Of a stretch of 64,000 nucleotides of DNA, positions 4,907 through 59,866 are shown in pieces (position 1 is the first letter of the stretch; each line of letters opens with the position of its first letter). This stretch comes from Candidatus Baldrarchaeum yapensis (GTDB lineage: Archaea > Asgardarchaeota > Baldrarchaeia > Baldrarchaeales > Baldrarchaeaceae). The translations under genes and the position numbers were made by a program. The stretch lies in contig JAEOSH010000003.1 in NCBI GenBank assembly GCA_016840465.1, positions 28,176 to 92,175 of the forward strand, in the 5' to 3' direction. The notes under the pieces were generated by a model that saw nothing but the letters and a program-made list of their open reading frames with translations, did no database searches and was not told where the DNA came from.

Positions 4907-5794
4907 TTGTCCGAGGAGAAGTTCTTACTCTATCTTAGGAAATGGATTGAGCATAACGTCGAACATAACAGAAAACACCTGGAGGAACTCAGAAAACTTC
5001 TGCAAAGAGTGAGAGAACATAACCTCAGAGAAGTGGAAGCGGAGTTGAGCGCAAGTGAGATGTTCATGGAAAAAGTTATTAAAAGCTTGGAAGAGGCGCT
5101 AAAGAGGCTAACAAGAGAACGGAGTGAAGTCGTCACCGCACATGAAGAACAAATGCTCGATCTGGAAGTTGAGATCGATATTCTTGAAATAAACAGAAGA
5201 CTCGCAGATGAGAATAGACGAATATTTGACGAACATGGTATAAAGGTTATAGATGTGAGAGGTGCCATTGGTAGTGGGAAAACATCACTAATAGAGGCAA
5301 TTATTGATAAGTTGAAGGGGAAATGTCGAATAGGCGTGATAGCGGGTGATGTGACAACTACAATAGATGCCGATAGAATAAGGCGTCACGGCGTGGACAG
5401 TATATGTGTAAATACGGGAAAGGAATGCCATTTGGATGCTCTACTGATAAGAAAGGCAATATCTAAAATGAATCTGCCAAATTACGATGTGATATTCATA
5501 GAAAACGTTGGAAATCTGATATGTCCGGCCGATTACCCCCTAGGGGCTCACCTGCACGTTGTTGTGGTCAGCGTGACCGAAGGATCAGATATGATCCTCA
5601 AGCACCCTCTGATATTCAAAGATGCAGATGTGATAGTGATTAATAAGACGGATCTCGCGGAAGAAATGAATGTGGATGTAAATAAACTCGTAAAGGACGC
5701 AAGAAGAGCAAACCCCAAGGCGAAAATAGTAACTACAAGTGTAAAGACTGGAAGAGGAATAGAGGAATTGATAAAGGCACTTGGCTTGTCTTAA
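4907..5794 (+). CDS. hypB: hydrogenase nickel incorporation GTPase HypB-like with ~110-aa N-terminal coiled-coil extension
   Basis: P-loop 'GAIGSGKTSLIEA', 'AGDVTTTIDADRIRRHG', 'ENVGNLICPADYPLGAH', 'INKTDL'. Confidence 0.88.
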   Translation: MSEEKFLLYLRKWIEHNVEHNRKHLEELRKLLQRVREHNLREVEAELSASEMFMEKVIKSLEEALKRLTRERSEVVTAHEEQMLDLEVEIDILEINRRLADENRRIFDEHGIKVIDVRGAIGSGKTSLIEAIIDKLKGKCRIGVIAGDVTTTIDADRIRRHGVDSICVNTGKECHLDALLIRKAISKMNLPNYDVIFIENVGNLICPADYPLGAHLHVVVVSVTEGSDMILKHPLIFKDADVIVINKTDLAEEMNVDVNKLVKDARRANPKAKIVTTSVKTGRGIEELIKALGLS

Positions 5795-35897: not shown

Positions 35898-36218
35898 TTG
35901 GCACTGGATGTGCTCGAAGCTATTAGGGCGGCGGAAAAGGAGGCGGAACAAATAATACAAAAGGCAGAGGAGGACGCGAAGAAAATTATAGAGGAAGCAA
36001 AAAGAAAGGCAATGGAAGAAGAGAAAAAGATAGTCGAGGAAGCGAAGAAGAAAGTCGATGGGATGATGAATGCCGCGGTGAAGGAGGCAGAGGAGGAGAT
36101 TAAGAAAATAGAGACAGAAACGAAGGATAAAATAGAAAAACTCGCAAAAAGTGCAGAAGGCAGGTTGCCTGATGCTGTGAATTTAATTGTAAGAACAATA
36201 ACGGGGGGAGTGTTATGA
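35898..36218 (+). CDS. A-type ATP synthase subunit H (stator coiled coil)
   Basis: 'VLEAIRAAEKEAEQIIQKAEEDAKKIIEEA', immediately upstream of subunit E. Confidence 0.75.
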   Translation: MALDVLEAIRAAEKEAEQIIQKAEEDAKKIIEEAKRKAMEEEKKIVEEAKKKVDGMMNAAVKEAEEEIKKIETETKDKIEKLAKSAEGRLPDAVNLIVRTITGGVL

Positions 36219-36835
36219 GCGAGGAGGAGAAAATAAAGAAAATTAGAGACAGGATAATTGCGCAGGCGAAGAAGAAGGCCGATGAAATAATAAATGAGGC
36301 TGAGCGTGAGGCAAAAAGGATAATCGAGGAGGCAATCTCCGAAGCAAAGCATAAGGCTGAAGTTATTCTCAGAAGGGGGGTCGAGGAATCCCAGGCATAT
36401 AAACGTAGAAAGATAGCGGAGGCAACACTGAAGTGGAGGATCGAATACATAAAGTCTCGTGAGAAGTTCATAGAGGAAGTCTTCAGAAAGGCAAATGAGG
36501 AACTTCAGAATCTCGTCAGGACCGACAAATATCGCAAAGTGATCAAGAACCTGATACTTGATGCGCTTAATGTTCTCGGCAGCGGCGAATATGAGGTAAT
36601 AATTGCAGGAGACACCGCGGTCAGCATAGATTTGAATGAAATAGCCAGATTATCCAAAGAGAAACTGGGAATCGATGTAAAGTTGTCGATGGCAAGCGAA
36701 CGCGTAAGATCGATGGGAGGCGTCATCGTCAGAACAAAGGACTTGTCATTCGTGGTGGACAATACGTTTGAGGCAAGATTAAAGAGAATGTATGAGCCTC
36801 TTAGAGTCCAAGTGGCTCGAATGCTCTTTAAATAA
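36215..36835 (+). CDS. atpE: A-type ATP synthase subunit E
   Basis: 'IRDRIIAQAKKKADEIINEAEREAKRIIEEA' and C-terminal 'GGVIVRTKDLSFVVDNTFEARLKRMYEPLR'. Confidence 0.92.
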   Translation: MSEEEKIKKIRDRIIAQAKKKADEIINEAEREAKRIIEEAISEAKHKAEVILRRGVEESQAYKRRKIAEATLKWRIEYIKSREKFIEEVFRKANEELQNLVRTDKYRKVIKNLILDALNVLGSGEYEVIIAGDTAVSIDLNEIARLSKEKLGIDVKLSMASERVRSMGGVIVRTKDLSFVVDNTFEARLKRMYEPLRVQVARMLFK

Positions 36836-37025: not shown

Positions 37026-37319
37026 ATGTTATCTAAAAACGACCGCCGAGAAAGAATAATGGGGAGCACACCAATGTACGAACTGTTACATATAACACTG
37101 TTAGTGGCGGCAATAATTTTCGCACTGCTATCTATCGAGGCAAAGAGGTTGCATCGCGCGGCAATGGCTTTTTGCATTTTCAGTGTGATACTTGGAATAA
37201 TTTTCTACATGCTAGCAGCTCCATACGTCGCTGTGGCTCAACTGGTAATCTATGCGGGTGCGGTGACCGTTCTCCTGCTGGTTGTAATAAGTTTGACTAG
37301 GGGTGGGTGGGAAGAATGA
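37026..37319 (+). CDS. complex-I-like subunit J, N-terminal half
   Basis: 'FYMLAAPYVAVAQLVIYAGAVTVLLLVVISL' NuoJ TM3-like; overlaps next ORF by 13 nt. Confidence 0.85.
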   Translation: MLSKNDRRERIMGSTPMYELLHITLLVAAIIFALLSIEAKRLHRAAMAFCIFSVILGIIFYMLAAPYVAVAQLVIYAGAVTVLLLVVISLTRGGWEE

Positions 37320-37588
37320 AGATAAGCGCAACTGGGGCGTTCTTCACGATAGTGTTCCTCATAGTTGTACTATGGACACTACTAATGGTAAAACCCGTAT
37401 TAGAGCCCGGAGCTTTCCTTGCACTTCCGCATTTCGTTAAAAGCACAGAAATCTCGGCGATAGTCCAAGATACAAGTATGCTACTGTGGAACGAGAGAGG
37501 ATTGGATGTTCTGGCGCAGGCAGCAATGTTACTAGCAACCGCCGCCGGAGTATCCGCTTTGTTTAGAAGAAAGGAAGTTAGAGAGTAG
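37307..37588 (+). CDS. complex-I-like subunit J, C-terminal half
   Basis: 93-aa membrane protein between J-N and K. Confidence 0.7.
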   Translation: MGRMKISATGAFFTIVFLIVVLWTLLMVKPVLEPGAFLALPHFVKSTEISAIVQDTSMLLWNERGLDVLAQAAMLLATAAGVSALFRRKEVRE

Positions 37589-37601
37589 TGGAGGTGGTTA
37601 G

Positions 37602-37922
37602 ATGGCCATAGATTTATTCTCTTGGTATATTGGAACCGTAGTAGTACTGTATTCAATAGGCCTCTACTGCCTAGCATCTAAGAGAAATCTGGTGAAGATG
37701 GTCATAGCAATAGAAATACTGCTGGCTGCGGCAAACCTGAACTTCATCGTGATGAGCTACTTCATGAGAACAGGATACGTACACACACTGGCTCATGCCA
37801 TAGTCATAATCTCGATGGCAATCGGCGCATGTGTGGCCGCAATAGCCCTTTCGCTTGTTATGAACGCGTATAGGCATTATAAGACTCTGGATACCCGTAA
37901 GATGAGCAGACTCAGATGGTGA
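37602..37922 (+). CDS. complex-I-like subunit K
   Basis: 'YSIGLYCLASKRNLVKMVIAIEILLAAANLNFIVMSY' NuoK signature. Confidence 0.92.
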   Translation: MAIDLFSWYIGTVVVLYSIGLYCLASKRNLVKMVIAIEILLAAANLNFIVMSYFMRTGYVHTLAHAIVIISMAIGACVAAIALSLVMNAYRHYKTLDTRKMSRLRW

Positions 37923-39958
37923 GGGGTGGTCGGGAGATGTTACCGTACGCCCCTTGGTTGTGCTGGTTAATTCCACTCGGATTTGCAGTACTCATACCGC
38001 TGGCGGATAAAATTCACCCAAGAGTAAGAGATGGACTTGCAATACTCGGATCGTTCTTAGCGATGGTGTTTGCTGCCTCTATGATACCGGATGTGTTCGC
38101 AGGAAAAGTAACCATTTGGCCGGATGGAAAAGTCGTAGGCGAAATACCATATGGCCAATCAGTTTCTTGGATCAATGCGACCGTCTATGTGAATGGAAAT
38201 GAAACCAGAATAACACTTGGCGCGGGAGTTCTGGTCGATCCATTGAGTGTGTTCATGGCAAACATTGTTGGAATAATAGGGTTCCTCATAATGGTCTATA
38301 GCCTCGGATACATGGCTGGAGAGCCAGATATGCGACGATACTGGTTCTGGATGTCGACGTTCATAGGCTCCATGATCCTCCTAGTGATGGCTGATAACCT
38401 AATACAGATGTTCGTCGGATGGGAGTTAGTAGGTCTATGCAGCTGGCAGTTGATCGCTTTCTGGTTCAAGGCAACAACGCCCAGCCCAGTGCCCGACTTT
38501 AAGACCGAAGGCGAATACAATGCACATTGTGGAATGAAAGCATGGATAATGACAAGAGCTGGTGACATATGCCTCCTAATAGCAATTGCAGCAATTGGTT
38601 GGGCACAATTAAAGGCCGGTCAGCCGTTAACATTCAAGTTCATGGACCTTCAGGAATCTACTGGCTGGCTGAGGGTACTAGCAGACGTGGGATTGCTTGT
38701 ACCTATTAGTGTGTTGATGTTTGGAGGACCAGTGGGTAAGAGTGCACAATTCCCGTTACACGAGTGGCTACCTGAGGCTATGGCGGGTCCCACAACCGTT
38801 AGTGCACTGATACATGCCGCCACGATGGTTAAGGCTGGAGTATACCTAGTGGCAAGAATGGTACAAGTGTTCTACCTTGCCGGAGAAAGTGCCGGTATGT
38901 TGGTTGCACTCAAGCCGCTCTTCATAACCGTCGCGTGGATAGGTTGCTTCACGGCATTTCTGGCCGCAACACAGGCAATGGTTTCTATGGAGCTTAAGAA
39001 AGTCCTCGCATACTCGACAATAAGCCAAATAGGGTATATGATGCTGGGTCTTGGTGCTGGCGCGTTGCTACTGATACCAGCCCATGGTTATGTTGCCGGA
39101 ACATTCCATCTCATGTCTCATGCTGTCTTTAAGGCATTACTCTTCCTCTGTGCAGGATCGGTACTTCATGCGACCGAGACAAAGTACATGTATGAAATGG
39201 GCGGCCTTAAGGAGGATATGCCTATAACCTACTGGACAATGGTTATAGGTGCGGCCTCTCTTGCCGCAGTTCCCGGACTGGCAGGATTCTTCAGCAAAGA
39301 ACTAATACTTGAAATATTATGGAAGGAAGGACAACTTGCGCTCTTCACTCTCGCGACGGTCACCGCCGCATTGACCGCATTCTACAGCTTCAGAATGATA
39401 GGACTTACTTTCCACGGACCGAAGAGCGAGTACATAAAGAAGAGAGAGGAGGAAGGAAAACACGTCCACGAGGCTCCTCCAGTCATGTGGGTACCATTGG
39501 TGATACTTGCCGTAGCATCGATAGTCCTAGGATGGCTGGGTCCGTACTACGAGGCCTTTGCAACGAGCGGCAGATTCTGGGTAGCTCATGAGCTTGGTTC
39601 CGAAGTAACGCTCGAGAAGTATGCTCACTATTTGACAGAGGTCTTCGCAACACCAACTGCGGCCCTCTCGCTACTCATGCTAGTGATCGGAATAGTTCCC
39701 GCGTACTACATTTACATAAAGCGTAAGATCGATCCTGCCGAACTAGTAAGTAAGAACGTCGTACTAAGAGCGCTTTACACGTTCTTGTACAACAGATGGT
39801 ACATCAATCCGTTCTACTACAAGGTGTTCCTTAATGGAACTCAGGCATTCTCCCAGAGATTCCGAAAGTTGCAGACAGGGATACTCAATGTCAACGTTAT
39901 CCTGATGCTCATAGGATTTGTGGCCTTCATTGCGTATCTGGTGTTTTACCTCCTGTGA
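37916..39958 (+). CDS. complex-I-like antiporter subunit L
   Basis: 680 aa; 'GWELVGLCSWQLIAFW', 'FPLHEWLPEAMAGPTTVSALIHAATMVKAGVYL'. Confidence 0.94.
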   Translation: MVRGGREMLPYAPWLCWLIPLGFAVLIPLADKIHPRVRDGLAILGSFLAMVFAASMIPDVFAGKVTIWPDGKVVGEIPYGQSVSWINATVYVNGNETRITLGAGVLVDPLSVFMANIVGIIGFLIMVYSLGYMAGEPDMRRYWFWMSTFIGSMILLVMADNLIQMFVGWELVGLCSWQLIAFWFKATTPSPVPDFKTEGEYNAHCGMKAWIMTRAGDICLLIAIAAIGWAQLKAGQPLTFKFMDLQESTGWLRVLADVGLLVPISVLMFGGPVGKSAQFPLHEWLPEAMAGPTTVSALIHAATMVKAGVYLVARMVQVFYLAGESAGMLVALKPLFITVAWIGCFTAFLAATQAMVSMELKKVLAYSTISQIGYMMLGLGAGALLLIPAHGYVAGTFHLMSHAVFKALLFLCAGSVLHATETKYMYEMGGLKEDMPITYWTMVIGAASLAAVPGLAGFFSKELILEILWKEGQLALFTLATVTAALTAFYSFRMIGLTFHGPKSEYIKKREEEGKHVHEAPPVMWVPLVILAVASIVLGWLGPYYEAFATSGRFWVAHELGSEVTLEKYAHYLTEVFATPTAALSLLMLVIGIVPAYYIYIKRKIDPAELVSKNVVLRALYTFLYNRWYINPFYYKVFLNGTQAFSQRFRKLQTGILNVNVILMLIGFVAFIAYLVFYLL

Positions 39959-39969
39959 GGTGATTTGTC

Positions 39970-41493
39970 ATGTGGGGTCAAATAGCTGGCAAATATTTGC
40001 CGGCGGCTCCCATTATGGTACCAGTGGCGTTTGCGATTCTGGTATTCATAGTAGGGTATTTTGCCGAGGAAACTCGTGCTAGAAAGGTAGTAGACTGGCT
40101 TGCAACACTAGGAATGTTCTGCACTCTTGCGATCGCGATCAAAATTCTATACAAGGTGGTGTTCGGGGGATTTGTGCTCCAGTTCACGTACCCAATCGCA
40201 ACTCTTTCCATGCTCGGAACGGGCTTAAAGGTAGATGCTCTCAGCGCATTCATGGCAGTTATATTCTCCTCAATAGGTTTCGCCGCATCTCTTTACAGCG
40301 TGAGATACATGGAACACGACACAGGTCTGACACAGTACTATGTGCTACTGCTACTCCTAGTAGCATCGCTGAACGGCGTAGCATACGCTGCTGACCTGTT
40401 TACACTGTTCGTGTTCTATGAGATGATGGGCATATCCTCATATTCGCTGGTTGCCTTTAGAAAACACCAGTGGGAACCTGTCGAGGCAGCAATGAAGTAC
40501 CTCTTCATGGCAGCAATTGGAAGCACGGCTGTCCTCTTAGCAATGTCCATGCTCTATGGACTCACGGGAACGTTAAACTTCGAGGGGATAGCCAATGCCC
40601 TTAAGAACGCGGAGGCACCAACGGGTTACTTATACCTAGTAATTGCTCTACTGATAGGAGGATTTGGAGTAAAGGCGGCAATTGTGCCTATGCACTCATG
40701 GCTGATCGACGCACACCCTGCCGCACCGACAAGCATAAGTGCAATGCTGTCAGGAGTTGTGATAAAGGGCGGAGTATACGCACTGGTCAGAACGCTATTT
40801 ATGTTCTTCCCAGTCACGGTCTACCATTGGGACTGGATGCTCGCGGTAATAGGCGTCGTCACGATGACGGTCGCAAACATAATCGCCCTCGTGCAGGAGG
40901 ATATCAAGAGACTACTGGCGTACTCCAGTATATACAACATAGGCCTGATAATGCTGGGCGTATCAATAGGACACGTGAGCGTCCTTGGACTCACGGGTGC
41001 CATGTTCCATGTGCTGAACCACGCAATCATGAAAGCACTCGCTTTCTTATGTGCAGGGTGCTTCCTTCACGTTGTAGGCACTAGGATGCTCTCTGATCTT
41101 AAGGGAGTTGCGAGAAGAATGCCAATAACTGGAACATGCTTCGGAATAAGCCTACTGGCTCTGATGGGAGTTCCGCCGCTGAACGGGTTCTGGTCAAAGT
41201 TCTGGATAATACTCGCAGTGTTCCTACTACCAGACCCCGTGTACGGTGGAATCCTTGGAATGCTCGCGCTAATCAACGTGCTCCTGGCGACGGGCTATTA
41301 TGCGAAGGTTCTAAGGATAGTGTGGATGGATCCGGAGTCCGAAAAAGTCAAGGAGGCGAAAGAGGCACCACCCGAGATGCTAATCGCACTGATAATACTG
41401 ACACTGGCGATACTCGTGATAGGAGTATATCCGCAACCGTTCTTCGAAATCTCAGAAAAGGCAGCAGAAAGCGTTATAGGAGTACTCGGCTAA
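39970..41493 (+). CDS. complex-I-like antiporter subunit (NuoM/NuoN/MrpD family)
   Basis: 507 aa; 'FVFYEMMGISSYSLVAF', 'VPMHSWLIDAHPAAPTSISAMLSGVVIKGGVYALVR'. Confidence 0.92.
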   Translation: MWGQIAGKYLPAAPIMVPVAFAILVFIVGYFAEETRARKVVDWLATLGMFCTLAIAIKILYKVVFGGFVLQFTYPIATLSMLGTGLKVDALSAFMAVIFSSIGFAASLYSVRYMEHDTGLTQYYVLLLLLVASLNGVAYAADLFTLFVFYEMMGISSYSLVAFRKHQWEPVEAAMKYLFMAAIGSTAVLLAMSMLYGLTGTLNFEGIANALKNAEAPTGYLYLVIALLIGGFGVKAAIVPMHSWLIDAHPAAPTSISAMLSGVVIKGGVYALVRTLFMFFPVTVYHWDWMLAVIGVVTMTVANIIALVQEDIKRLLAYSSIYNIGLIMLGVSIGHVSVLGLTGAMFHVLNHAIMKALAFLCAGCFLHVVGTRMLSDLKGVARRMPITGTCFGISLLALMGVPPLNGFWSKFWIILAVFLLPDPVYGGILGMLALINVLLATGYYAKVLRIVWMDPESEKVKEAKEAPPEMLIALIILTLAILVIGVYPQPFFEISEKAAESVIGVLG

Positions 41494-41525: not shown

Positions 41526-42098
41526 TTATTCTTTCTGCTTTTTATTTTGTGCAAAGAATCTTTTTGAAATGACGTCAAGAGCCCTTTTGACAAACTCCTT
41601 TTTGCCAGAAATCCTAATAGTATTTTCACTTTCTGCCTCAATCATCGCTCCCGTCTTTTTTTCAATACCCTTAAGCTCGTCGAAACTAGCTGCTCTCGGC
41701 AGTACTATCCTCACAAAGTCGACGTCTTTATCTCGTGGAATTCCCGGTATAAATGTCCCACCAAGTTGTGGTAGTGGTACGCGGAATTCCCCGCTCTTGG
41801 CCTTCCTTAAAAGCTCCTTCCATTTATTAACGTAGTCTTCTCCAAGAACCGTAGATGCATGTTCAAAGAGAATCTTCCTTGCACTATCTAAGAGCATATC
41901 AATATCTGCAATGAATGCCTCCTCCGTGGCTTTACCCCTCGCGAGATGAAGTTGCCAATGAGAAATTAAAAGACGAGAGTGGCGAAGATCTGCATTCACC
42001 TGTAGTGATGGTGGAACTCCCTTTGAGGTAAGATCTCCCAGCATCTTATTCAAAACAGTCCATATGGAGTATCTTATTTCAAGGTCCCTCTGAGACAA
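41526..42098 (-). CDS. archaeal conserved hypothetical protein (DUF2096-like?), KH-like C-terminus
   Basis: 190-aa ORF 9 nt downstream of hdrB; family call from memory. Confidence 0.55.
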   Translation of the reverse strand: MSQRDLEIRYSIWTVLNKMLGDLTSKGVPPSLQVNADLRHSRLLISHWQLHLARGKATEEAFIADIDMLLDSARKILFEHASTVLGEDYVNKWKELLRKAKSGEFRVPLPQLGGTFIPGIPRDKDVDFVRIVLPRAASFDELKGIEKKTGAMIEAESENTIRISGKKEFVKRALDVISKRFFAQNKKQKE

Positions 42099-42107
42099 GG
42101 TATCACC

Positions 42108-42998
42108 TTAGAGACCGATTTTTCTCAATAGAGGTCTCACGGGTATAATATTGTACTGAAGACCTAATACATGTGGCGATGCACCAAGTGCCAACATTAT
42201 CAACTGGGTTATAAACACAACCGGAAGTCCTAACTTCACTCCCATACGGTCCTCTATTTCCTTCTGTCCCCTATCGAATTGCAGGTGGCAGAACACGCAA
42301 GGTGTGGTCAGGCAATCGGCGCCTGCTCTCATCATGTTCTGAACTTTTTCCCTCGTCATGTCTAAACTCACATCTATCGATCCTGCTCTCACCCCGCCAC
42401 CCGCTCCACAGCACATAAGCTTATCCCTGTAATCTATACTTATGGCGTTCGTGGTTTCGATAATCCTGTCAAGGATCGTTGGTCGCTCGGGATGCTCATG
42501 CCGCCTAACCTCTCTGGGCTTTAAGAAGTGGCAACCATAATGAGCGGCCACTTTCAAGCCGCTGAGATCTCTTTCTATCTCGCTCCTTATTCTATTCAGC
42601 CCTATGTCATGCTCTATCACTTCAATTACATGCTTGACCTCTATGGTCCCCTTAAACTCTTTGTCGATGTTCTTTAGGATTTCATTAACCCACTCCCTGA
42701 GTTCCTTGTTCTCCTTTAAAAGATGATTTGCCTCCTGCAAACTTCCATAGCAGCCGTTACAACATGTTACTATGTCAGCGCCTAGACTCTCGGCAATGCA
42801 CAGGTTTCTTGCAGCTATAACGATCCAAGTGTAGAGATCAAAGGATCCAAACACTCCGGGTGCTGGGCAGCAGGAGGCTCCCTTCATATCTAGAAGTTCT
42901 ATGCCATATCTTGTCATAAGGTATCTTGTCGAGGCCTCAACGCCCGGGTACCTGTTGGGCATTATGCATCCGAGGAAAAACGCATATTTCTTCGCCAT
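42108..42998 (-). CDS. hdrB: heterodisulfide reductase subunit B (copy 1)
   Basis: Two complete CCG motifs: 'FLGC..SCC..CCNGC' and 'HYGC..MCCGAGGG..PCVFC'. Confidence 0.94.
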   Translation of the reverse strand: MAKKYAFFLGCIMPNRYPGVEASTRYLMTRYGIELLDMKGASCCPAPGVFGSFDLYTWIVIAARNLCIAESLGADIVTCCNGCYGSLQEANHLLKENKELREWVNEILKNIDKEFKGTIEVKHVIEVIEHDIGLNRIRSEIERDLSGLKVAAHYGCHFLKPREVRRHEHPERPTILDRIIETTNAISIDYRDKLMCCGAGGGVRAGSIDVSLDMTREKVQNMMRAGADCLTTPCVFCHLQFDRGQKEIEDRMGVKLGLPVVFITQLIMLALGASPHVLGLQYNIIPVRPLLRKIGL

Positions 42999-43568
42999 TT
43001 AACCACTCTCCTGATAACCAACCATTTGATCGAATTTCATAATTTTTATCAACTTTCTGACTTCATCCAGCGCCTCGGGATAAGAATGAACCGTGGGTGG
43101 CAATTCACTTAAACCTAAAGCCTTTCTGATCTCTTTAAACTCGTCGGTGATCGGAACTGCGTGACCAAATCTTATAAGAAGCCTTGCAACTCGTTTGTGT
43201 TGCTCTTTCATCCTGCCGCTTTTTGCAGCAATGTTTCTGATCACTCTGATGATGTCCGTAGTTCTGACGCCGCGCGGACACCTCTCATAACACGTATAAC
43301 AGGTGGTGCAGTACCAGAGCTCTTCACTTGAAAGCACCTCATCCTTGAGCCCAAGAAGAGCCTTGCGCATAACTAGACGCGTCCTATAAGCAGTTCTTCT
43401 GCCAGATGGGCAACTTCCACTGCACGTTCCGCACTGGAAACATGCAGTGATGGTTTCCATATGTTCTCTTCCGAAAATCTTGGACCCGTACTCTATTATC
43501 TCCTCAACAAACTTAGGATCGGTTTTTTCGAGTTGTATGACCTGTTCGGAAGCACTCATCGCGGACAC
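42999..43568 (-). CDS. hdrC: heterodisulfide reductase subunit C (copy 1)
   Basis: 'CFQCGTCSGSCPSGRR', 'CTTCYTCYERCPRGV'; abuts hdrB. Confidence 0.93.
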   Translation of the reverse strand: MSAMSASEQVIQLEKTDPKFVEEIIEYGSKIFGREHMETITACFQCGTCSGSCPSGRRTAYRTRLVMRKALLGLKDEVLSSEELWYCTTCYTCYERCPRGVRTTDIIRVIRNIAAKSGRMKEQHKRVARLLIRFGHAVPITDEFKEIRKALGLSELPPTVHSYPEALDEVRKLIKIMKFDQMVGYQESG

Positions 43569-43679
43569 CCATTACGGATCAGCCGGGAATTACATACCCG
43601 GTGTCCTTTATTTGTTCTTTCCCAAGAAAAGAGGTATCCTCCAGTTATTCTGGTTATTACGTAAAAAATGTATTGGGGG

Positions 43680-44774
43680 TCAATGCGCATTATACGCGGT
43701 CAAAATCGCGTTAACAAAGTCTTCAGGTGAGGTGCCGCTAGTTCTTATTTTTTTACTCTCAAAGACTTCCACAAGTGCGGACTTTAGGAGGTTCTTATCT
43801 AAGCGTAGACCCTTTAATGAGTTTTCCAAATCGGCTATTGCATCTCGAGGCTCGAGCCAAAAGTCCCCGCTTATCAAAATATCCCTGATCACTTCATCCT
43901 CCATCTCGAAAGTCACCCTGATTAAACCACCAGGGGACTTATAGACCCCCTCAACGATGTAAGTATCGCCTGCCACCTTAACTTTCCTTGTAGCAAGATT
44001 CGGATGTCTCTCCTCGTGTATAAATAGCCACTCATGCGAAAGATACTGCTCTCTGAGTTCCCGTATGATTTCCTCCTCTCTTCTCGTCAATTCACCTCTT
44101 TCAAGCTTAACATTGAGGTACTTCTCAAAATTCTTCACTAACAAGTCAACAACTCTGCTTCTATCCGGTACGTACCCTAACTCTCTCCTCAATGAGGTGA
44201 CCCTTTCCTTCAGACTTTTTGCAAACTTGTCCCTGAACTTCTCACTGGGTACCCTGAGAACCTTAACCATTATATCGTAATTAAAGTCGAGAATTATGTT
44301 GCCGACGAAGACAAATGCTTTCTCTATTTCCCCACCGCCGTTTCCACTGATCTTCCTACCGTTAACCTCTATGTCATTAACGGGTCTAAAGTACGCGTCG
44401 ACCCCTAACTCCCTATACGTTTGCACAGGAGCCCTTAAGAAGTACTCAAATCTACCAACGGTGTCCGCGGGGACATCTGACCAGTCCTGGGGAATCACCA
44501 GTTGATAAAATATCTGATTTTCGTCTAAGTATACGGCCCCGCCGCCAATAACTCTCCTCACTATTGGTATTCCCATTTTCCTGCAAAATTCTATGTCTAC
44601 CTCCTTTGAAACCTCCTGAAAATACCCGCAGGAAACCAGAGGTGATGCCGGCCAGTCTATGAAAAGTGTCGGTGGAATGTCCCCCTCGCTTAGAGCAATC
44701 GCCGCTGCATGCCATATTACCTGCGTCAAAACGGGATCTATCGGCCCAAGAAAAACGTATCGCAGCTTCTTCAT
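43680..44774 (-). CDS. lplA: lipoate-protein ligase with C-terminal accessory domain
   Basis: 'VRRVIGGGAVYLDENQIFYQLVIP', 'NDIEVNGRKISGNGG', C-terminal 'YKSPGGLIRVTFEMEDEVIRDILISGDFW'. Confidence 0.93.
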   Translation of the reverse strand: MKKLRYVFLGPIDPVLTQVIWHAAAIALSEGDIPPTLFIDWPASPLVSCGYFQEVSKEVDIEFCRKMGIPIVRRVIGGGAVYLDENQIFYQLVIPQDWSDVPADTVGRFEYFLRAPVQTYRELGVDAYFRPVNDIEVNGRKISGNGGGEIEKAFVFVGNIILDFNYDIMVKVLRVPSEKFRDKFAKSLKERVTSLRRELGYVPDRSRVVDLLVKNFEKYLNVKLERGELTRREEEIIRELREQYLSHEWLFIHEERHPNLATRKVKVAGDTYIVEGVYKSPGGLIRVTFEMEDEVIRDILISGDFWLEPRDAIADLENSLKGLRLDKNLLKSALVEVFESKKIRTSGTSPEDFVNAILTAYNAH

Positions 44775-45232
44775 CTCAACTCTCCCTTCTTAAGCTTCTC
44801 CTCGTCCTCCTTGATCCACTTCTCTATGTTCTCGACACCATGAATTAGATTTTTCAAGTCCTCCTCTAAGTTCGTCGGTTCTATTACCGCGATCCACCCC
44901 TCACCGTACGGATCCTCATTTAATAACTCGACTCTTTTCTCCTTAACGAGTTTTTCATTCACCTCTATGATCTTCCCGCTGACTGGCGAATACAGAGTTC
45001 CGCGCCATTTCCCACTCTCAACAACCGCAAGAGGCTTTCCTTGCTCGACATGCCGCCCAACGGGGAGTACTCGTATTGCTATTGCTCGCCCTAAGGCCTG
45101 TTGCCCCCAGTCATCTATTCCCACACGAACCTTCCCATTTTCAATACGTGCCCACGTGTGCCTTGGATGATAGTAGAGATCCTCGGGGAATTCATATTTT
45201 CCGAGTATTTTTACCAATATGCCGACCTCCAC
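44771..45232 (-). CDS. GcvH-like lipoyl-carrier protein (glycine cleavage H / LbpA family)
   Basis: 'YYHPRHTWARIENGKVRVGIDDWGQQALG', lipoylation site 'VESGKWRGTLYSPVSGKIIEVNE'; 4-nt overlap with lplA. Confidence 0.93.
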   Translation of the reverse strand: MEVGILVKILGKYEFPEDLYYHPRHTWARIENGKVRVGIDDWGQQALGRAIAIRVLPVGRHVEQGKPLAVVESGKWRGTLYSPVSGKIIEVNEKLVKEKRVELLNEDPYGEGWIAVIEPTNLEEDLKNLIHGVENIEKWIKEDEEKLKKGELR

Positions 45233-45405: not shown

Positions 45406-45777
45406 TTGGGTACCTTTCGAATAGTTAGCGACTCGCGGAACGAGGGAAGACGGATGAGCGACGCGCTAACTGTCATAATAGCGTTTGTGGTCTGCCTTCT
45501 GACTTCAGCGTTCCTTTACGCGCTCGGACGGAAATTGGCACCACGGGGCAAAGAGAATGACGAGAAAGTAACACCATACGCATGCGGAGAAGACTACCCG
45601 GTCGAATACATACAGTATTACATCCACTGGTTCTACTACGCGGTCTTCTTCACAATACTTGAGGTTGCAGCGATACTCATAGCGTTCTCGCTGTTCGCAC
45701 CAAGCGTGGCGCTCGTGGTGGTAATAATATACACGATTATGGCCCTAATTGCCGCGTTTATGGCACCGCGTGAGTAG
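45406..45777 (+). CDS. complex-I-like subunit A
   Basis: 'KVTPYACGEDYPVEYIQYYIHWFYYAVFFTILEVAAILIAFSL' NuoA-like; likely ATG start at 45454. Confidence 0.85.
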   Translation: MGTFRIVSDSRNEGRRMSDALTVIIAFVVCLLTSAFLYALGRKLAPRGKENDEKVTPYACGEDYPVEYIQYYIHWFYYAVFFTILEVAAILIAFSLFAPSVALVVVIIYTIMALIAAFMAPRE

Positions 45778-45787
45778 GTGATGTGAT

Positions 45788-46225
45788 ATGGGAATACTAG
45801 ATCGTATGGTCAAGTGGGCGCGTATAAGATCACCCTGGATACTCCACTTCAACACGGGAGGATGCAACGCGTGTGACATAGAGGTACTAGCAGTATTAAC
45901 TCCAAGATTTGATGTTGAGAGGTTCGGAATACTCCTAAAGGGAAGCCCCAGACATGCTGATGTGCTCGTAGTAACAGGTCCCGTGACGAGACAAGTTGCT
46001 AAGCGGCTAAAAAGAATTTATTATCAAATGCCTGAGCCTAAATTCGTAATGGCAGTAGGTGCATGCGCAGTCAGCGGTGGGGTCTTCAGGGGGGCTTATA
46101 ACGTACATATGGGACTCGACCAAGTACTTCCGGTCGATGTATACGTTCCCGGATGCCCACCAAAGCCGGAGGCCATCATTGATGGTGTTGTTAAGTTGTT
46201 AAAGAAGTTGGAGGAGGGTGGTTAG
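45788..46225 (+). CDS. [NiFe]-hydrogenase small subunit / NuoB-like
   Basis: 'NTGGCNACDIEVLAVL' CxxC (hydrogenase type, not the complex I tandem CC), 'AVGACAVSGG', 'VPGCPPKPEAIIDG'. Confidence 0.93.
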   Translation: MGILDRMVKWARIRSPWILHFNTGGCNACDIEVLAVLTPRFDVERFGILLKGSPRHADVLVVTGPVTRQVAKRLKRIYYQMPEPKFVMAVGACAVSGGVFRGAYNVHMGLDQVLPVDVYVPGCPPKPEAIIDGVVKLLKKLEEGG

Positions 46226-46724
46226 TGTGAGCGAACTAAAAGCGGAACAGGAACTCGTCGAGGATGTAAAGAAACAGCTCGGTGACAAAATTGTGGACAC
46301 CAAGATCCAGAGGGCAAAGAGGGTGTATATAAGGGTAAAGGCTGGAGATCACCGTGACGTTATAAAGTACCTCAAGGAGAAATGGGACGCATATCACGTA
46401 TCGACAATCACTGGCGTTGACTTGGGCGAAAATATAGAACTTCTTTATCACCTGTTCGCCTATCGGGGAAATGTTACGGTCACCGTGCGAACCGAGGTTC
46501 CAAAGTCGGATCCCAAGATACAGACAATTGTTGACATAATTCCGGGCGCAACGCTCTATGAGAGAGAAGTTCATGACTTGCTGGGTGTGGTTTTTGAGGG
46601 ACATCCTGAGCTTGAACGTTTAATATTACCGGATGACTGGCCAGAGGGGGTATATCCCCTAAGAAAAGAATACAAACTCGAAGTTGAGGAAGTTGAAGAG
46701 GTTAAGGAGGAGGGTGAGGCATGA
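46218..46724 (+). CDS. NuoC-like subunit (30-kDa)
   Basis: 'GATLYEREVHDLLGVVFEGHPELERLILPDDWPEGVYPLRKEY'. Confidence 0.94.
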   Translation: MVSVSELKAEQELVEDVKKQLGDKIVDTKIQRAKRVYIRVKAGDHRDVIKYLKEKWDAYHVSTITGVDLGENIELLYHLFAYRGNVTVTVRTEVPKSDPKIQTIVDIIPGATLYEREVHDLLGVVFEGHPELERLILPDDWPEGVYPLRKEYKLEVEEVEEVKEEGEA

Positions 46725-47935
46725 GCGAGGAGAGGATGTTTAGAATTCCCGTTGGTCCTCAGCATCCCGCTCTTAAAGAACCGATAAACTTCACATTCAT
46801 AGTTGATGGAGAAAGGGTCGTGGATGTCAAGCCACGGATAGGATACAATCACCGCGGAATAGAGAAACTCATGGAATCGAAGACGTACATTCAAGGGCTT
46901 TATCTCATCGAGAGAATTTGCGGAATATGCTCGGCGGCGCATCAGGGATGTTACGCTCAGAACATAGAGGAGGCCGCAGGCATCGAGGCACCCCCACGTG
47001 GTGTATACCTCAGAACGCTAATCTGGGAGTTAGAAAGAATTCACAGCCATCTCCTGTGGGTAGGTGTCGCATACCACGAGATAGGGTTTGATACGCTATT
47101 CATGTATGTATGGCGTGACAGAGAGCGGGTTATGGACATATTGGAGATGATATCGGGTAACAGGGTCAACTACGCAATGAACACCATAGGTGGAGTTCGT
47201 AGGGATGTTACTCCCGAAATTGTAGACAATGCCCTAAAGGCCCTCGACTACTTGGAAGAGAGAACGAAGTACTACAAGAAGGTCACCGAAGAGGACGACA
47301 GCATCCTTGCAAGGACCGTCAACGTCGGAATACTGAAGACAGAAGATGCTAAGAGATTATGCGCCGTCGGCCCGACGGCAAGGGCATCAGGACTGAAGGT
47401 TGATGTGAGAAGAGACGACCCATACGGTGCTTACGACGAGTTGGACTTCGACGTCGTAGTTTATGACACCTGCGACCTTACCGCGAGAGTACTCGTACGT
47501 ATAGACGAGGTTCTCGAAAGTATAAAAATGTGCCGCCAGATTCTCCAGAACCTCCCATCTGGGCCCGTTAGAGTGAAATTCAAGAGAAAGGTTCCAGAAG
47601 GAGAGTCAATAAGCAAGGTGGAGGCCCCTCGTGGAGAGGACTTACACTATGTCAAGGCAAATGGCACTGAAAAACCGGAGAGGTACAAGGTGAGAGCACC
47701 TACACTTGCGAATATACCGTCGGTCTGCGAGATGCTAAAGGGAGGATACATTGCCGACATCCCAATAGTATTCGCTGGTATCGATCCCTGTATTGCGTGC
47801 ACCGACAGGATGTTGTTCATAGATGTGAATACTGAGCGAAAGTGGATGTGGACGGAAGAGGAGTTGAGGATGTACGCGCGTAAGTGGTATAAGAAACATC
47901 TTAAGGAAGTGGTGAGGGAAAGATGGAAGTGCTAG
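46721..47935 (+). CDS. group 4 [NiFe]-hydrogenase large subunit / NuoD-like
   Basis: L1 'ERICGICSAAH' (Cys67, Cys70) and L2 'DPCIACTDR' both present. Confidence 0.93.
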   Translation: MSEERMFRIPVGPQHPALKEPINFTFIVDGERVVDVKPRIGYNHRGIEKLMESKTYIQGLYLIERICGICSAAHQGCYAQNIEEAAGIEAPPRGVYLRTLIWELERIHSHLLWVGVAYHEIGFDTLFMYVWRDRERVMDILEMISGNRVNYAMNTIGGVRRDVTPEIVDNALKALDYLEERTKYYKKVTEEDDSILARTVNVGILKTEDAKRLCAVGPTARASGLKVDVRRDDPYGAYDELDFDVVVYDTCDLTARVLVRIDEVLESIKMCRQILQNLPSGPVRVKFKRKVPEGESISKVEAPRGEDLHYVKANGTEKPERYKVRAPTLANIPSVCEMLKGGYIADIPIVFAGIDPCIACTDRMLFIDVNTERKWMWTEEELRMYARKWYKKHLKEVVRERWKC

Positions 47936-48939
47936 AACTCATACTCCTTATATTGGCAACTGTGTTGTTCCCCGGTGTTGTGTTCTGCACGTATTACGCC
48001 CTATTTCTAGAGTGGGTTGATCGAAAGTTCTTTGCAAGGCTCCAGAACAGAGTGGGGCCTTGGATAACTGGGCCAAAAGGAATACTGCAGCCCATTGCGG
48101 ATATAATAAAGTTACTCGCAAAAGAGGACATAACTCCAAATGGGGTTGATAGAGCCGGTTTCGTCGGTGCACCTTTCTTCGCATTAACCTTAGCGCTGTT
48201 CTCATTGATGTTCGTGCCAATAGCATCAACAAGCGGAATACTCTCATTTAAAGGAGATCTGCTCATAGTGCTGTTCATATCCACGGTATTCGGCATCATA
48301 ATAATATTCGCCGGGTACGTCTCTGCAAGCAGATTCTCGATAGTCGGCACTGCAAGAGCGGGGCTCCAGTTCGTGGGGTACGAAATCCCGCTCTTTGTGT
48401 CAGCAATTATTCCCGCACTTATAGCCAGGTCTCTGACATTGAAGGAAATAGTGGAGTGGCAGATTGCACATTACCCACTGATACTATGCTTCCCTGCAAT
48501 GATAGCATTCGGAATCTTCATAGTATGTTCCCTTGCGAAACTCGAAAAACTGCCGTTTGACATACCCGAAGCAGAAACGGAGATAGTTGCAGGGTGGGCA
48601 ACAGAGTTCAGCGGAAAGAAGTTGGCCCTCTTTAGACTTTCAACGGACCTGAAAATGTTGCTTCTTGCCGGATTGGCGACTGCATTGTTCCTTGGTGGAC
48701 CTGCACCCTGGGGCTTCACACTTCCGGCAGATCTAAATCCGTACCTTGCGGCGCTCATATACTCGATATGGTTCGTGATAAAGACAATAATCGTTGTGCT
48801 TATAATGTCCACGTTGAAAGCGGCATTTGCAAGGTACAGGATAGATCAGGCACTTAGGGGCTTCTGGAGATATCTAACGCCCCTATCGCTTGCAATACTA
48901 ATACTTACGCCTATAGTCGCCTATCATTTCTACTGGTAG
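47923..48939 (+). CDS. complex-I-like subunit H
   Basis: 'EWVDRKFFARLQNRVGPWITGPKGILQPIADIIKLLAKEDITP', 'FDIPEAETEIVAGWATEFSG'. Confidence 0.95.
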   Translation: MEVLELILLILATVLFPGVVFCTYYALFLEWVDRKFFARLQNRVGPWITGPKGILQPIADIIKLLAKEDITPNGVDRAGFVGAPFFALTLALFSLMFVPIASTSGILSFKGDLLIVLFISTVFGIIIIFAGYVSASRFSIVGTARAGLQFVGYEIPLFVSAIIPALIARSLTLKEIVEWQIAHYPLILCFPAMIAFGIFIVCSLAKLEKLPFDIPEAETEIVAGWATEFSGKKLALFRLSTDLKMLLLAGLATALFLGGPAPWGFTLPADLNPYLAALIYSIWFVIKTIIVVLIMSTLKAAFARYRIDQALRGFWRYLTPLSLAILILTPIVAYHFYW

Positions 48940-48949
48940 GTGATGTAAG

Positions 48950-49306
48950 ATGAGATTACCCGCAAGGTTCTCACCCGAATTGCTGAGGCATGTGCCGCGC
49001 AAGCCGGCAACAGTAATGTATCCGTTTGTCCCCGTGGAAGCACCGGAGGGCTTCAGGGGAAAACATGAATTTGATATAGAGAAGTGCGTTGGATGCGGCC
49101 TGTGCGCAAGGGATTGCCCCTCAGGAGCAATAGAAATGGTTCCCGATGAGAGAACAAAGGGCAAAAAGCGTCCTGTGATCCACTTGGACAGATGCCTCTT
49201 CTGTGCCCAGTGCGAGGAGTCATGCCCAAGAGGGGCGATAAAGCTAACAAAAGTGTACGAAATGGCGGGCTACAAGAGGGAAGAAATGGTAGTCACCGCC
49301 CCCTGA
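48950..49306 (+). CDS. complex-I-like subunit I (2x[4Fe-4S] ferredoxin)
   Basis: 'CVGCGLCARDCPSG', 'CLFCAQCEESCPRG'. Confidence 0.93.
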   Translation: MRLPARFSPELLRHVPRKPATVMYPFVPVEAPEGFRGKHEFDIEKCVGCGLCARDCPSGAIEMVPDERTKGKKRPVIHLDRCLFCAQCEESCPRGAIKLTKVYEMAGYKREEMVVTAP

Positions 49307-49448: not shown

Positions 49449-50471
49449 GTGCTCCACATGTGTAAAAAGGAGAGTTTGTACAGGCTTGCAAAGGAAATAA
49501 AGGAATTCGTTGGAGTTTCTAGAAAGAGGCCAATCATAAGAGTGACTTCCGCATTAACCGATACCCTAGAATTTTCCGATGCAAAGATTATAAGAAGCTT
49601 CGGGGAGGATGCAGCAATACTCGACATAGGTAATGGAAGACTCCTCTTATTTGCGGCAGACGGAATATGGTATAAGTTGGTATCAGCGGACCCATTCTTT
49701 GCTGGATATTGCGCGGTATTGGTTAACGTGAATGATATTGTGTGTAAAGGCGGGGATCCTTTAGCGCTGGTCGATATACTCGGCGTTCCGAAGGAGTGCG
49801 ATATCGATAAAGTTGTGAGGGGAATAATACGGGGATGCAAGAAGTTTGGTGTTTCCTGCGTAGGAGGGCATTTGCACCCGGATCATCCGATCCCCGAAAT
49901 CTCCGCCGCAATCATAGGAGTTGCGGAATATAATAAGGTGATATTCAGCGATCTTGCAAGACCCGGTGACCTAATAATCATAGGGATAGATCTGGACGGG
50001 AAGTTTCATGAAAAGTTCAAATTGGCGTGGGACACAACATCGCACAAGTCTCCTAAGCAGATCAGAGATATGTTCCAAGCAATGTATATAATAGCGGACG
50101 AGGGACTAGCAACCGCAAGCAAGGATATAAGCAATCCTGGAGTCCTCGGATCTCTCGGGATGTTGCTCGAAGCAAGCCAAGTTGGCGGATACGTGTATCC
50201 TGATAAGATACCTATTCCGGAAAACGTGTCAATATATACATGGGTCAAGACGTACCCCGGATTTGGGGTTGTGCTCACATCACCCGAGGATCTTGCAAAT
50301 AAATGTGTGAAAATACTGGAAGACCATGGAATATCAGCATCCATAGTCGGAAAGGTGATCTCTGATCCTCTTCTTCTCCTAAAAAGCGATAATGAAATGG
50401 CTGAGGTCTTTAACTTCTCAAGAGACAAAATTTCGGGGAGACCTAACAGAGGGCAATTAAAACAAATTTAA
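49449..50471 (+). CDS. AIR synthase-related protein, similar to methanogenesis marker 2
   Basis: 'FGEDAAILDIGNGRLLLFAADGIWYKLVSADPFFAGYCAVLVNVNDIVCKGGDPLALVDIL'. Confidence 0.8.
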   Translation: MLHMCKKESLYRLAKEIKEFVGVSRKRPIIRVTSALTDTLEFSDAKIIRSFGEDAAILDIGNGRLLLFAADGIWYKLVSADPFFAGYCAVLVNVNDIVCKGGDPLALVDILGVPKECDIDKVVRGIIRGCKKFGVSCVGGHLHPDHPIPEISAAIIGVAEYNKVIFSDLARPGDLIIIGIDLDGKFHEKFKLAWDTTSHKSPKQIRDMFQAMYIIADEGLATASKDISNPGVLGSLGMLLEASQVGGYVYPDKIPIPENVSIYTWVKTYPGFGVVLTSPEDLANKCVKILEDHGISASIVGKVISDPLLLLKSDNEMAEVFNFSRDKISGRPNRGQLKQI

Positions 50472-53650: not shown

Positions 53651-54046
53651 TTGTCAATTTTCAAATACTTAAAGCCAAAAATCACGTATAGGGTCATTAT
53701 AGCTAGAATGCGTCCGAAAGAGGAACGTTCCGAGTACGATAGACTCTCAAATGGATATATGGAAATTGCCGCAGTTGCATATTTTAATCCGAGTGATTAC
53801 GACTCCCTGATAGGTAAGGAGGGTGGTAATGTTAAGGTGAAGGGCAGGGGAGGGGAGGTAGTACTTAAACCGCTAAAGGACGAAAGAGTTCCCAAGAACA
53901 CAATAATCATACCGCCGGGACCTTGGGCTAATGCGTTGATCGATGAGAGTGGCCATGGCGGCATTCCTCATTTTAAGTCCTTAAATGTCGAAGTGATGGT
54001 TGTCAAAGAGCCCGTTACCAAGGTAGAAGAGATTTTAAAAAGGTGA
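53651..54046 (+). CDS. fwdD: formylmethanofuran dehydrogenase subunit D-like (molybdopterin dinucleotide-binding)
   Basis: 'CxxN-less' MopBD domain: 'AVAYFNPSDYDSLIGKEGGNVKVKGRGGEVVLKPLKDERVPKNTIIIPPGPWANALID'; TTG start with SD 'aggaggtg'. Confidence 0.88.
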   Translation: MSIFKYLKPKITYRVIIARMRPKEERSEYDRLSNGYMEIAAVAYFNPSDYDSLIGKEGGNVKVKGRGGEVVLKPLKDERVPKNTIIIPPGPWANALIDESGHGGIPHFKSLNVEVMVVKEPVTKVEEILKR

Positions 54047-54050
54047 TGAT

Positions 54051-55601
54051 ATGTCATCTGGAGCGCCTGAAAAGCTTATTATAAAAGGCGGCGTGGTCGT
54101 GGATCCGATTAATGAAATTCGAGGAGATAAACTCGATATTTTCGTTTCTAATGGAAAGATTTGTGAAGAATTCGATGAAAAGAATGCAAAGATAATAGAT
54201 GCGGCTGGAAACATCGTTGTTGCCGGGGCCATCGACCCTCATGCTCATCTCATCACAACAGGATCATTTCTGAGATACTTGGTTCCTGTAGCCCGCAAAG
54301 CACCAACTTATGAAATAATAAGAGAGTATGTGAGGCTGGGATGGACGACGATATCGCTGGTCGGTCCCTCGATTCCCGAAGTACTGCATGTACACACGAT
54401 CTTACGTAATATTGGTTTCATGGATTACGCGATATTTCCCCGCATCGACAATGATCAGATGTTTCTTTCTCTTGTCAGAACGCTGGACATCGCCGGACTT
54501 GCGACCTATTTGAGCATCATCGCTAAGAACTTACAAACGCTCGGTTTTTACATGGTACCGCCTGGCATCCTAGAGGGACAGGTCGCAGGACAAGATATAA
54601 AATCCTTGAAAGAAAAAATCAGAGTGCTGGACATCTCTCCCCTCGAAGCAATTATGGCACTTTTCGATTCCATAAAGAGAATAGGGTCTTTTGTTCCGGT
54701 GCAAATAGAGGCGCCTGGACTGACAAATAGCCCCATCGAAGAATTAAAGGAGATAATTGACGTACTTGGTGATGCAAGTATATTTGTGCCTCATTTATCG
54801 TATCATCTTCTGGGAGAGGACATCAGCACTGAGGAATTGCTGAAGCTTTTCGAGGGTGGCAAAATCTTCGGGGACATCGGAGTGTGCGTAGATAGAAGTA
54901 TTTCGGTAGCGCCCATAAAAAGGGTAGATGGATACAAGAATATACGGTGGTTTGCATCTTATGCTTGTGAAATGGAATCGTTTTCCCTCTATGGTCTTTT
55001 GGACGAAGAGTTTGCAGAGAAGCAGTCTTATGAAATTCTCAAAAACGCCTTAATGCTAGCAATTAAGGGAGGTAGGAAGGATAATTTGTCAATTTCAGGA
55101 GATATTCCACTATGCTCAGAACCTAAAGACCTTGCGATATTTATGTGTTCAATTCTTAGTAAGGAGTGCAGAAAGGAGGTTATAGGTCGGCATGCCACAG
55201 ATGACCTGTCAGCATTACCGGATGTCAATCTTATAGACGTCATACAAATGACCAGGGCGTCTCCTGCTAAAGCTTTAGGAATCGTAGAGAAAAAGGGACA
55301 TTTAGGAATCGGCGCAGATGCAGATATCGTAATCTATGACTTTGACATAGAGAGGCAGGACCCGTCGAGAGACTGGAAGGCATTCATGAAAGCGCTCCTG
55401 AAGCCGAAATATGTCATAAAGAGTGGTCAAGTAGTAGTGGTGGACGGCGAAATTACGAGTTCCGCCAATTCTTCTCCCATAATTGGCCGGGCAAAAGATA
55501 TCGACCAAAAAGAGTTCGAAGAATTTATTAACAGAGTGAGGAGAACCACAGGCCTTTACTACTCTTGCGTCGTTGAGAATAGATACAGAAGTGTCATGTG
55601 A
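54051..55601 (+). CDS. formylmethanofuran dehydrogenase subunit A-like amidohydrolase, divergent active site
   Basis: 'KLIIKGGVVVDPINEIRGDKLDIFVSNGKI', 'IDPHAHLITTG', 'MTRASPAKALGIVEKKGHLGIGADADIVIYD'. Confidence 0.85.
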   Translation: MSSGAPEKLIIKGGVVVDPINEIRGDKLDIFVSNGKICEEFDEKNAKIIDAAGNIVVAGAIDPHAHLITTGSFLRYLVPVARKAPTYEIIREYVRLGWTTISLVGPSIPEVLHVHTILRNIGFMDYAIFPRIDNDQMFLSLVRTLDIAGLATYLSIIAKNLQTLGFYMVPPGILEGQVAGQDIKSLKEKIRVLDISPLEAIMALFDSIKRIGSFVPVQIEAPGLTNSPIEELKEIIDVLGDASIFVPHLSYHLLGEDISTEELLKLFEGGKIFGDIGVCVDRSISVAPIKRVDGYKNIRWFASYACEMESFSLYGLLDEEFAEKQSYEILKNALMLAIKGGRKDNLSISGDIPLCSEPKDLAIFMCSILSKECRKEVIGRHATDDLSALPDVNLIDVIQMTRASPAKALGIVEKKGHLGIGADADIVIYDFDIERQDPSRDWKAFMKALLKPKYVIKSGQVVVVDGEITSSANSSPIIGRAKDIDQKEFEEFINRVRRTTGLYYSCVVENRYRSVM

Positions 55602-59272: not shown

Positions 59273-59289
59273 CTCTTGAAAATAGTGGA

Positions 59290-59844
59290 TTGTGTGCCAC
59301 CTTGTTGAAAGTAAATAAATGGAACCATATACGTATTTCTGACACTGACCTCCGGTTCATATTCCAGAGGTGTAAGAGTTTGAAGCCGTCTCCTCTCGAG
59401 ATATATAAACTACTTCCGAAGACAAATTGCAAAAAATGTGGTTTGCCAAACTGTATGGCATTTGCCGTGAGATTACTGAGCGGTCAGGCAAAAATAGAGG
59501 ACTGCCCCGACCTCGTAGAGAGGGAGGAGTTCAGAGAGAATTATGAAAAACTTAAGGAGTTGCTGGGAGAAAGACCAGCAGCAGAAGTATCATTACCGAG
59601 AATAGATAATGAGGAGGCATGCAATGGATGTGGTATCTGTGTGGTGGTTTGCCCTGCGAATGCTAGGGCAGACCCGGAGGTTGGTAGCGGAAAGGGGGCA
59701 TCCCGAAAGGAAGGTCTCATTTTCGTGGTTGTTAATGGAAAAGTCAAGATAATGGATATAAGTAAGTGCAGGAGACAGGAAGATTTGACAACGTGTCGTG
59801 TGTGCGAGGAGTTCTGCCCAAATAATGTCATAAAAATAGGTTAA
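59290..59844 (+). CDS. Fe-S protein: CdhE-like [4Fe-4S] domain plus ferredoxin domain (likely start TTG near 59380)
   Basis: 'YKLLPKTNCKKCGLPNCMAFAVRLLSGQAKIEDCP' then 'CNGCGICVVVCPANA', 'CRVCEEFCPNN'. Confidence 0.85.
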   Translation: MCATLLKVNKWNHIRISDTDLRFIFQRCKSLKPSPLEIYKLLPKTNCKKCGLPNCMAFAVRLLSGQAKIEDCPDLVEREEFRENYEKLKELLGERPAAEVSLPRIDNEEACNGCGICVVVCPANARADPEVGSGKGASRKEGLIFVVVNGKVKIMDISKCRRQEDLTTCRVCEEFCPNNVIKIG

Positions 59845-59866
59845 AACATAGGAGGTATGCAAAAAT

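Follow-up and report, generated by a model that had tools for sequence, protein, structure and literature searches.

We analyzed a stretch of 64,000 nucleotides from Candidatus Baldrarchaeum yapensis (contig JAEOSH010000003.1, positions 28,176 to 92,175; hereafter the window), in which two plus-strand gene clusters very probably specify an energy-converting, membrane-bound [NiFe]-hydrogenase of group 4. The enzyme would resemble complex I but lack an input module for NADH or F420, and would belong to the Hfo or Asgard complex-I-like type. One cluster consists of six open reading frames (ORFs) at 45406-49306, A-B-C-D-H-I, whose ends overlap or nearly touch and which are read here as a single operon. 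The other, at 37026-41493, encodes K, L and a single M/N-type subunit as well as J, which is divided between two ORFs; the gene for the M/N-type subunit lies 12 bases downstream of L. The features and the matches that identify them are listed in Table 1.

Table 1. Genes and motifs of the hydrogenase locus and its surroundings, in coordinates of the window
Feature	Coordinates	Strand	Description and evidence
HypB	4907..5794	+	Nickel insertion GTPase; TIGR00073 274 bits, cut-off 121
ATP synthase H + E	35898..36835	+	V/A-type ATP synthase subunits, directly upstream of J; PRK08404, PRK03963, PF01991
J	37026..37319	+	NuoJ N-terminal/MbhD-type subunit; PF00499 and PF13244
J2	37307..37588	+	Small membrane ORF, second half of split J; similar ORFs in loci L079 and L085
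K	37602..37922	+	NuoK/MrpC-type subunit; PF00420
L	37916..39958	+	NuoL-type antiporter-like subunit; TIGR01974 486 bits, cut-off 407.5
M/N-type subunit	39970..41493	+	Second antiporter-like subunit (M/N/MrpD type); PRK08376 369 bits
gcvH-lplA-hdrC-hdrB-DUF2096 operon	41526..45232	-	Separates the two halves of the complex
DUF2096 protein	42098-41526	-	PF23100
hdrB	42998-42108	-	TIGR03288/TIGR03290 pair for hdrCB, above cut-off
hdrC	43568-42999	-	TIGR03290/TIGR03288 pair for hdrCB, above cut-off
lplA	44774-43680	-	Lipoate ligase
gcvH	45232-44771	-	PF01597
A	45406..45777	+	NuoA-like membrane subunit; PF00507 25.7 bits, cut-off 23.3
B	45788..46225	+	Small electron-transfer subunit, hydrogenase-type CNACDIE
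C	46218..46724	+	NuoC/FpoC-like 30 kDa subunit; PF00329, TIGR01961, NF040611
D	46721..47935	+	Catalytic large subunit, 404 residues; Ni ligands Cys67, Cys70, Cys357, Cys360; Glu20, His74
L1 cysteine pair of D	46919..46930	+	C67-G-I-C70; alignment
L2 cysteine pair of D	47789..47800	+	C357-I-A-C360; alignment
H	47923..48939	+	NuoH/FpoH/MbhM-type membrane anchor; PF00146 291 bits
I	48950..49306	+	2x[4Fe-4S] ferredoxin-like, NuoI/HycF type; TIGR01971, NF009053, Fer4 domains

Pfam and NCBIfam label the six genes NuoA, B, C, D, H and I, just as a preliminary description of the window had anticipated that automated annotation would call them NADH-quinone oxidoreductase ABCDHI, and D scored slightly below the NuoD cut-off (349.6 versus 360 for PRK06075). 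That description had placed the genes correctly, except that A probably starts at ATG 45454 rather than at TTG 45406. Subunit A is conserved in Asgard and bacterial relatives, the PFDIPEAE loop of H is kept in the alignment, and by Pfam and NCBIfam both a NuoH-type anchor and a NuoI-type ferredoxin subunit are encoded in the operon. The NuoA-, NuoJ- and NuoK-type partners claimed for the complex were all found, J being split into two ORFs, the second of which had no match in the Pfam scan; L and one M/N-type subunit are present in addition. The M/N-type subunit is 42-49% identical to one M/N-type subunit of the relatives. In K, the first membrane glutamate of NuoK is present and the second (E. 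coli Glu72) is replaced, as it is in the aligned Asgard relatives.

We then examined the catalytic site by aligning D with 148 homologues, including E. coli HycE, HyfG and NuoCD, P. furiosus MbhL, two NuoD-type sequences from the PDB and loci from Asgard, Thermoproteota, bacterial and other genomes. The alignment confirmed both hydrogenase cysteine pairs of D at the positions first noted. The nickel ligands and proton donors of Mbh are Glu21, Cys68, Cys71, His75, Cys374 and Cys377 (PMC11228991), and all have equivalents in D, namely Glu20, Cys67, Cys70, His74, Cys357 and Cys360, with Asp362 and Arg363 as further second-shell residues. The four cysteines, the glutamate and the histidine occur in 114-115 of the 115 hydrogenase-type rows, the single exception being a fragment, and never jointly in the 34 Nuo-type rows; every Nuo-type row lacks the glutamate, and the majority are missing either half of the cysteines or all of them. 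The quinone-site residues His38 and Tyr87 of Thermus correspond to Lys19 and Gly68 in D. After the DPCIACTDR motif, which ends at Arg363, D continues in a 41-residue C-terminal tail that aligns partly with the tail of HycE; this fits maturation by a HycI-type protease. Subunit B carries GGCNACDIE where E. coli NuoB has GLSCCYVE, that is, the CxxC of the preliminary description rather than the tandem CC of complex I.

Some Asgard D proteins appeared to lack L1 or L2 in a first-pass motif scan. The aligned columns show variants at these sites, such as EHVCGIC and PRACGIC, and therefore no loss of ligands in those proteins. Among the Asgard D proteins of the Nuo type that were examined (loci L113-L128), the majority retain one cysteine of each former [NiFe] pair, as in DRLCYVS...DLCMGEIDR, and may represent half-way states of ligand loss; a literature search for partial loss of NiFe cysteines in NuoD or FpoD returned nothing relevant.

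A maximum-likelihood tree was built from 115 D sequences. All Nuo-type sequences formed one clade (support 100/100), and the D protein of the window fell outside it, among the group 4 hydrogenases, in a clade (93/97) with hydrogenase-type sequences from Asgard archaea, Thermoproteota and bacteria (TA06, Aminicenantes and Acidobacteriota). An FpoD model was also scanned over the phylum of locus L042, where the loci examined gave hydrogenase-type sequences and none above the FpoD cut-off; the tree therefore contains no curated Fpo reference, and Nuo-type D proteins from Asgard archaea, one Bathyarchaeota genome and bacteria serve as stand-ins. Since the deeper branching of group 4 is weakly supported, we make no claim as to which lineage is nearest to complex I.

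Comparison with proteins of known structure agreed with the tree. In phmmer searches of the PDB, D matched MbhL (E 1.5e-88) and HycE (E 1.7e-82) above every NuoD (E 3.6e-64), and the top match of B, above every NuoB, was MbhJ (6cfw_J, E 9e-53). An AlphaFold2 model of D with a mean predicted local distance difference test score (pLDDT) of 84.9 had HycE and MbhL as its best structural matches. The model of L (pLDDT 76.5) matched NdhF/NuoL of complex I over its full length, with Foldseek template modeling (TM) scores of 0.73-0.76. The region of the lateral helix HL was modeled at a pLDDT near 55, and L therefore only likely carries this helix.

We searched the genome assembly (2.27 Mb, 100 contigs, 96% completeness) family by family. 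The HypB homologue noted earlier at 4.9 kb proved to be genuine; it is weak as the sole evidence for nickel, and HypD, HypE, HypF and the maturation proteases were therefore searched for as well. HypF (contig C51) and HypE (contig C64) were found above their cut-offs; two proteases of the HycI family (PF01750) and an interrupted hypD gene are also present. Other hyp genes and an endopeptidase, which the preliminary description had proposed to look for, are thus present, and neither of the objections foreseen there, a D placed by phylogeny inside Nuo/Fpo with cysteines that do not converge or a genome lacking all other hyp genes, arises.

The same description had seen no NuoEFG, FpoF or FpoO. 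This holds for the hydrogenase cluster, and the genome search found NuoF to be absent; proteins of the FrhB/FpoF family are nonetheless encoded on other contigs, one of them adjoining HdrC and HdrB. The genome also encodes a second group 4 [NiFe] complex (contig C1, L070 1-8012, and contig C46, right end of L071). In this complex an HdrB-like protein is encoded between C and D, and a HycB-like ferredoxin and two subunits of the antiporter type are present as well. The remaining antiporter-type (PF00361) matches of the genome belong to this second complex. A group 3b-like hydrogenase operon with its own protease is present and otherwise intact.

These results support the proposal that a group 4 [NiFe]-hydrogenase is combined here with a nearly complete membrane arm of the complex I kind, on the strength of the cysteine motifs and the second-shell set, the loss of the quinone site, the tree, the structure and sequence comparisons, the gene content and most of the maturation genes. 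Judged from its sequence, the enzyme is probably a hydrogenase of the '4g' type with a complex-I-type membrane arm; subgroup 4g of HydDB is polyphyletic (PMC11291895). Several points weigh against this identification. The L2 segment of the D model has low pLDDT, and the assignment of the four cysteines as nickel ligands comes from the sequence alignment. Among the Hyp proteins, the maturation search covered HypB, HypD, HypE and HypF. Furthermore, the conserved CGTHE motif of hypD (contig C67, minus strand, L062 2412-2560) is the site of a short insertion, the perfect palindrome TGCCGGTCAGTGACCGGCA, and an in-frame TGA within it interrupts HypD. Finally, the Hfo/Asgard complex-I-like family is biochemically uncharacterized according to PMC7886697 and PMC11291895.

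The gene content was compared with that of known systems. Hfo is an 11-subunit Fpo-like hydrogenase of Bathyarchaeia, with Hfo-like enzymes in Pyrodictium and Methanomethylicus (Loh et al. 2021, PMC7886697); its 11 subunits are those of Fpo and Nuo, its L1 and L2 motifs are intact and its HydDB class is 4g, and that paper named it as a closer link to complex I than Mbh. The complex of the window resembles Hfo in having A, B, C, D, H, I, J, K, L and an M/N-type subunit and in lacking FpoFO or NuoEFG in its cluster, but it differs in having two antiporter-type subunits where Hfo has three (L, M and N, in one cluster), in its split gene order and in the division of J into two ORFs. A complex-I-like group 4 [NiFe]-hydrogenase of Asgard archaea has been described and modeled for Freyarchaeia and Atabeyarchaeia (Valentin-Alvarado et al. 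2024, PMC11291895); it combines two antiporters with a subunit resembling NuoL, and Hdr and ATP synthase genes adjoin it. By gene content, this complex shares with the window the hydrogenase, the NuoL/M/K-like membrane modules and the ATP synthase and Hdr neighbors, and the window differs in that the gcvH-lplA-hdrCB operon splits the locus. Group 4g hydrogenases with Nuo-like subunits are also known from Korarchaeia (PMC10667645), a different phylum; compared by description only, they are similar in the type of catalytic subunit and in the NuoLM-like transmembrane subunits nearby. P. furiosus Mbh (group 4d, PDB 6CFW), the best PDB match for D and B, has the same ligands and the same proton-path glutamate and histidine, but it carries an Mrp-type Na+ module, in contrast to the NuoL-type and NuoA-type subunits found here. 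With Nuo and Fpo/Fqo, the complex shares the C subunit and the membrane arm A, H, J, K, L and M/N; it differs from them in that D and B carry [NiFe]-hydrogenase ligands without quinone-site residues and in that NuoEFG and FpoFO are missing from the cluster.

The same architecture was found in order-mates, in other Asgard families and in Aminicenantes-type bacteria. In order-mates the gene order is J-K-L-M-N, followed by ATP synthase H/E, followed by A-B-C-D-H-I, so that the synteny places ATP synthase H/E beside the complex there too. Three antiporter-type subunits are encoded in the order-mates with long enough contigs and in the readable loci of several other Asgard families; the window, with L and one M/N-type subunit, has one fewer than the relatives examined. 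Closely related clusters with D 55-58% identical were observed in metagenome-assembled genomes of TA06, Aminicenantes and Acidobacteriota (L037-L041). Where these bacterial loci are complete, they encode J, K, A-D, H and I together with three subunits of the antiporter type; transfer between the domains possibly accounts for these clusters.

For the mechanism, we infer activity, direction and ion from Mbh and the cited papers, and the stoichiometry likewise. Electrons from reduced ferredoxin would enter at the two [4Fe-4S] clusters of I and travel by way of the B cluster to the [NiFe] site, located where D and B meet; there, H2 would be formed from protons by way of Glu20 and Cys357. Translocation of H+ or Na+ in H, K, L and the M/N-type subunit would be driven by movements of the D/H/A/J region, and the translocated ions could feed the ATP synthase of the V/A type.

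Presumably the reaction can also run backward, and ferredoxin could then be reduced at the expense of H2 and the membrane potential for the formylmethanofuran dehydrogenase encoded nearby. FwdB, FwdA- and FwdD-like, FwdF-like and HdrA2 genes lie at 53651-61159, and they allow either fermentative H2 production or H2-driven CO2 reduction. It is possible, though we consider it the less probable case, that the same enzyme runs mainly in this reversed direction, supplying reduced ferredoxin for CO2 reduction in acetogenic growth. A reversed direction has been proposed for the Hfo of Bathyarchaeia (PMC7886697) and acetogenesis for Asgard relatives (PMC11291895); however, group 4 enzymes are usually assumed to be fermentative and ferredoxin-oxidizing, and sequence cannot tell the direction.

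The hdrC, hdrB, gcvH and lplA genes between the two halves raise the question of whether the hydrogenase is coupled to HdrBC, with electrons passing to or from a disulfide in the way suggested for the Ehd, Ehe and Ehg complexes, and with GcvH and LplA supplying or regenerating that disulfide. Such coupling appears unlikely. The locus resembles Ehd, Ehe and Ehg in having a group 4 hydrogenase near HdrBC, an antiporter and, as in Ehe clusters, which contain HdrBC and GcvH, a GcvH (PMC9723716), and gcvH and lplA stand next to A in two other Asgard families (L082 and L083). In contrast to Ehd and Ehe, HdrBC is encoded here on the opposite strand, outside the hydrogenase operon; no order-mate examined has HdrBC at that place, and the second group 4 complex of the genome, with HdrB inside its operon, fits Ehd (PMC9723716) better than the complex of the window does. 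We regard as quite doubtful the related idea that the reduced complex with two antiporters works with HdrBC of the locus and a lipoylated H-protein, a lipoyl/thiol disulfide exchanging electrons with H2 or ferredoxin at the membrane.

That the enzyme is inactive in this strain through the broken hypD seems highly improbable. The TGA within the insertion at the CGTHE motif would argue for it; on the other side, two group 4 complexes and the group 3b-like operon with its protease are otherwise intact, and an assembly artifact is a plausible source of a perfect palindrome that occurs a single time among 100 contigs. Neither the window nor the other loci examined contained a further copy of the palindrome; it may be an artifact, a small element or a real break.

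A quinone- or F420-type complex I (Nuo/Fpo-like) with relict cysteines, as the Nuo labels and the complex-I-type A, K and L might suggest, is extremely improbable given the full second shell of D without the quinone-site histidine and tyrosine, its place outside the Nuo-type clade, its C-terminal processing tail, the hyp genes, and the differing true Nuo-type D proteins of the same phylum. We rejected respiratory complex I on the residues of D and B and on the tree.

Hydrogenases of this kind have been reported from Bathyarchaeia and other archaea (PMC7886697), from Korarchaeia (PMC10667645) and from Asgard archaea (PMC11291895), and papers of 2021 and 2024 had already made the evolutionary point that the active site of a hydrogenase can sit on an arm of the complex I kind. 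The window adds a clear Asgard case that links membrane hydrogenases to complex I where automated annotation says NADH-quinone oxidoreductase. Particular to it are the one antiporter fewer, the gcvH-lplA-hdrC-hdrB operon that splits the locus, and the second, HdrB-containing group 4 complex in the genome. If the enzyme were labeled respiratory complex I, the energy metabolism would be misread as quinone respiration where H2 cycling is expected. The NuoEFG-less complexes of two Asgard lineages, interpreted as respiratory complex I in PMC9723677, are worth inspecting for L1 and L2 cysteines.

Two further genes of the window were observed. A lipoyl synthase, LipS1, is encoded at 61182-62144. Directly downstream of the hydrogenase, at 49449-50471, lies a gene for a protein that scores at the cut-off of 'methanogenesis marker 2' (TIGR03267), likewise in some order-mates.

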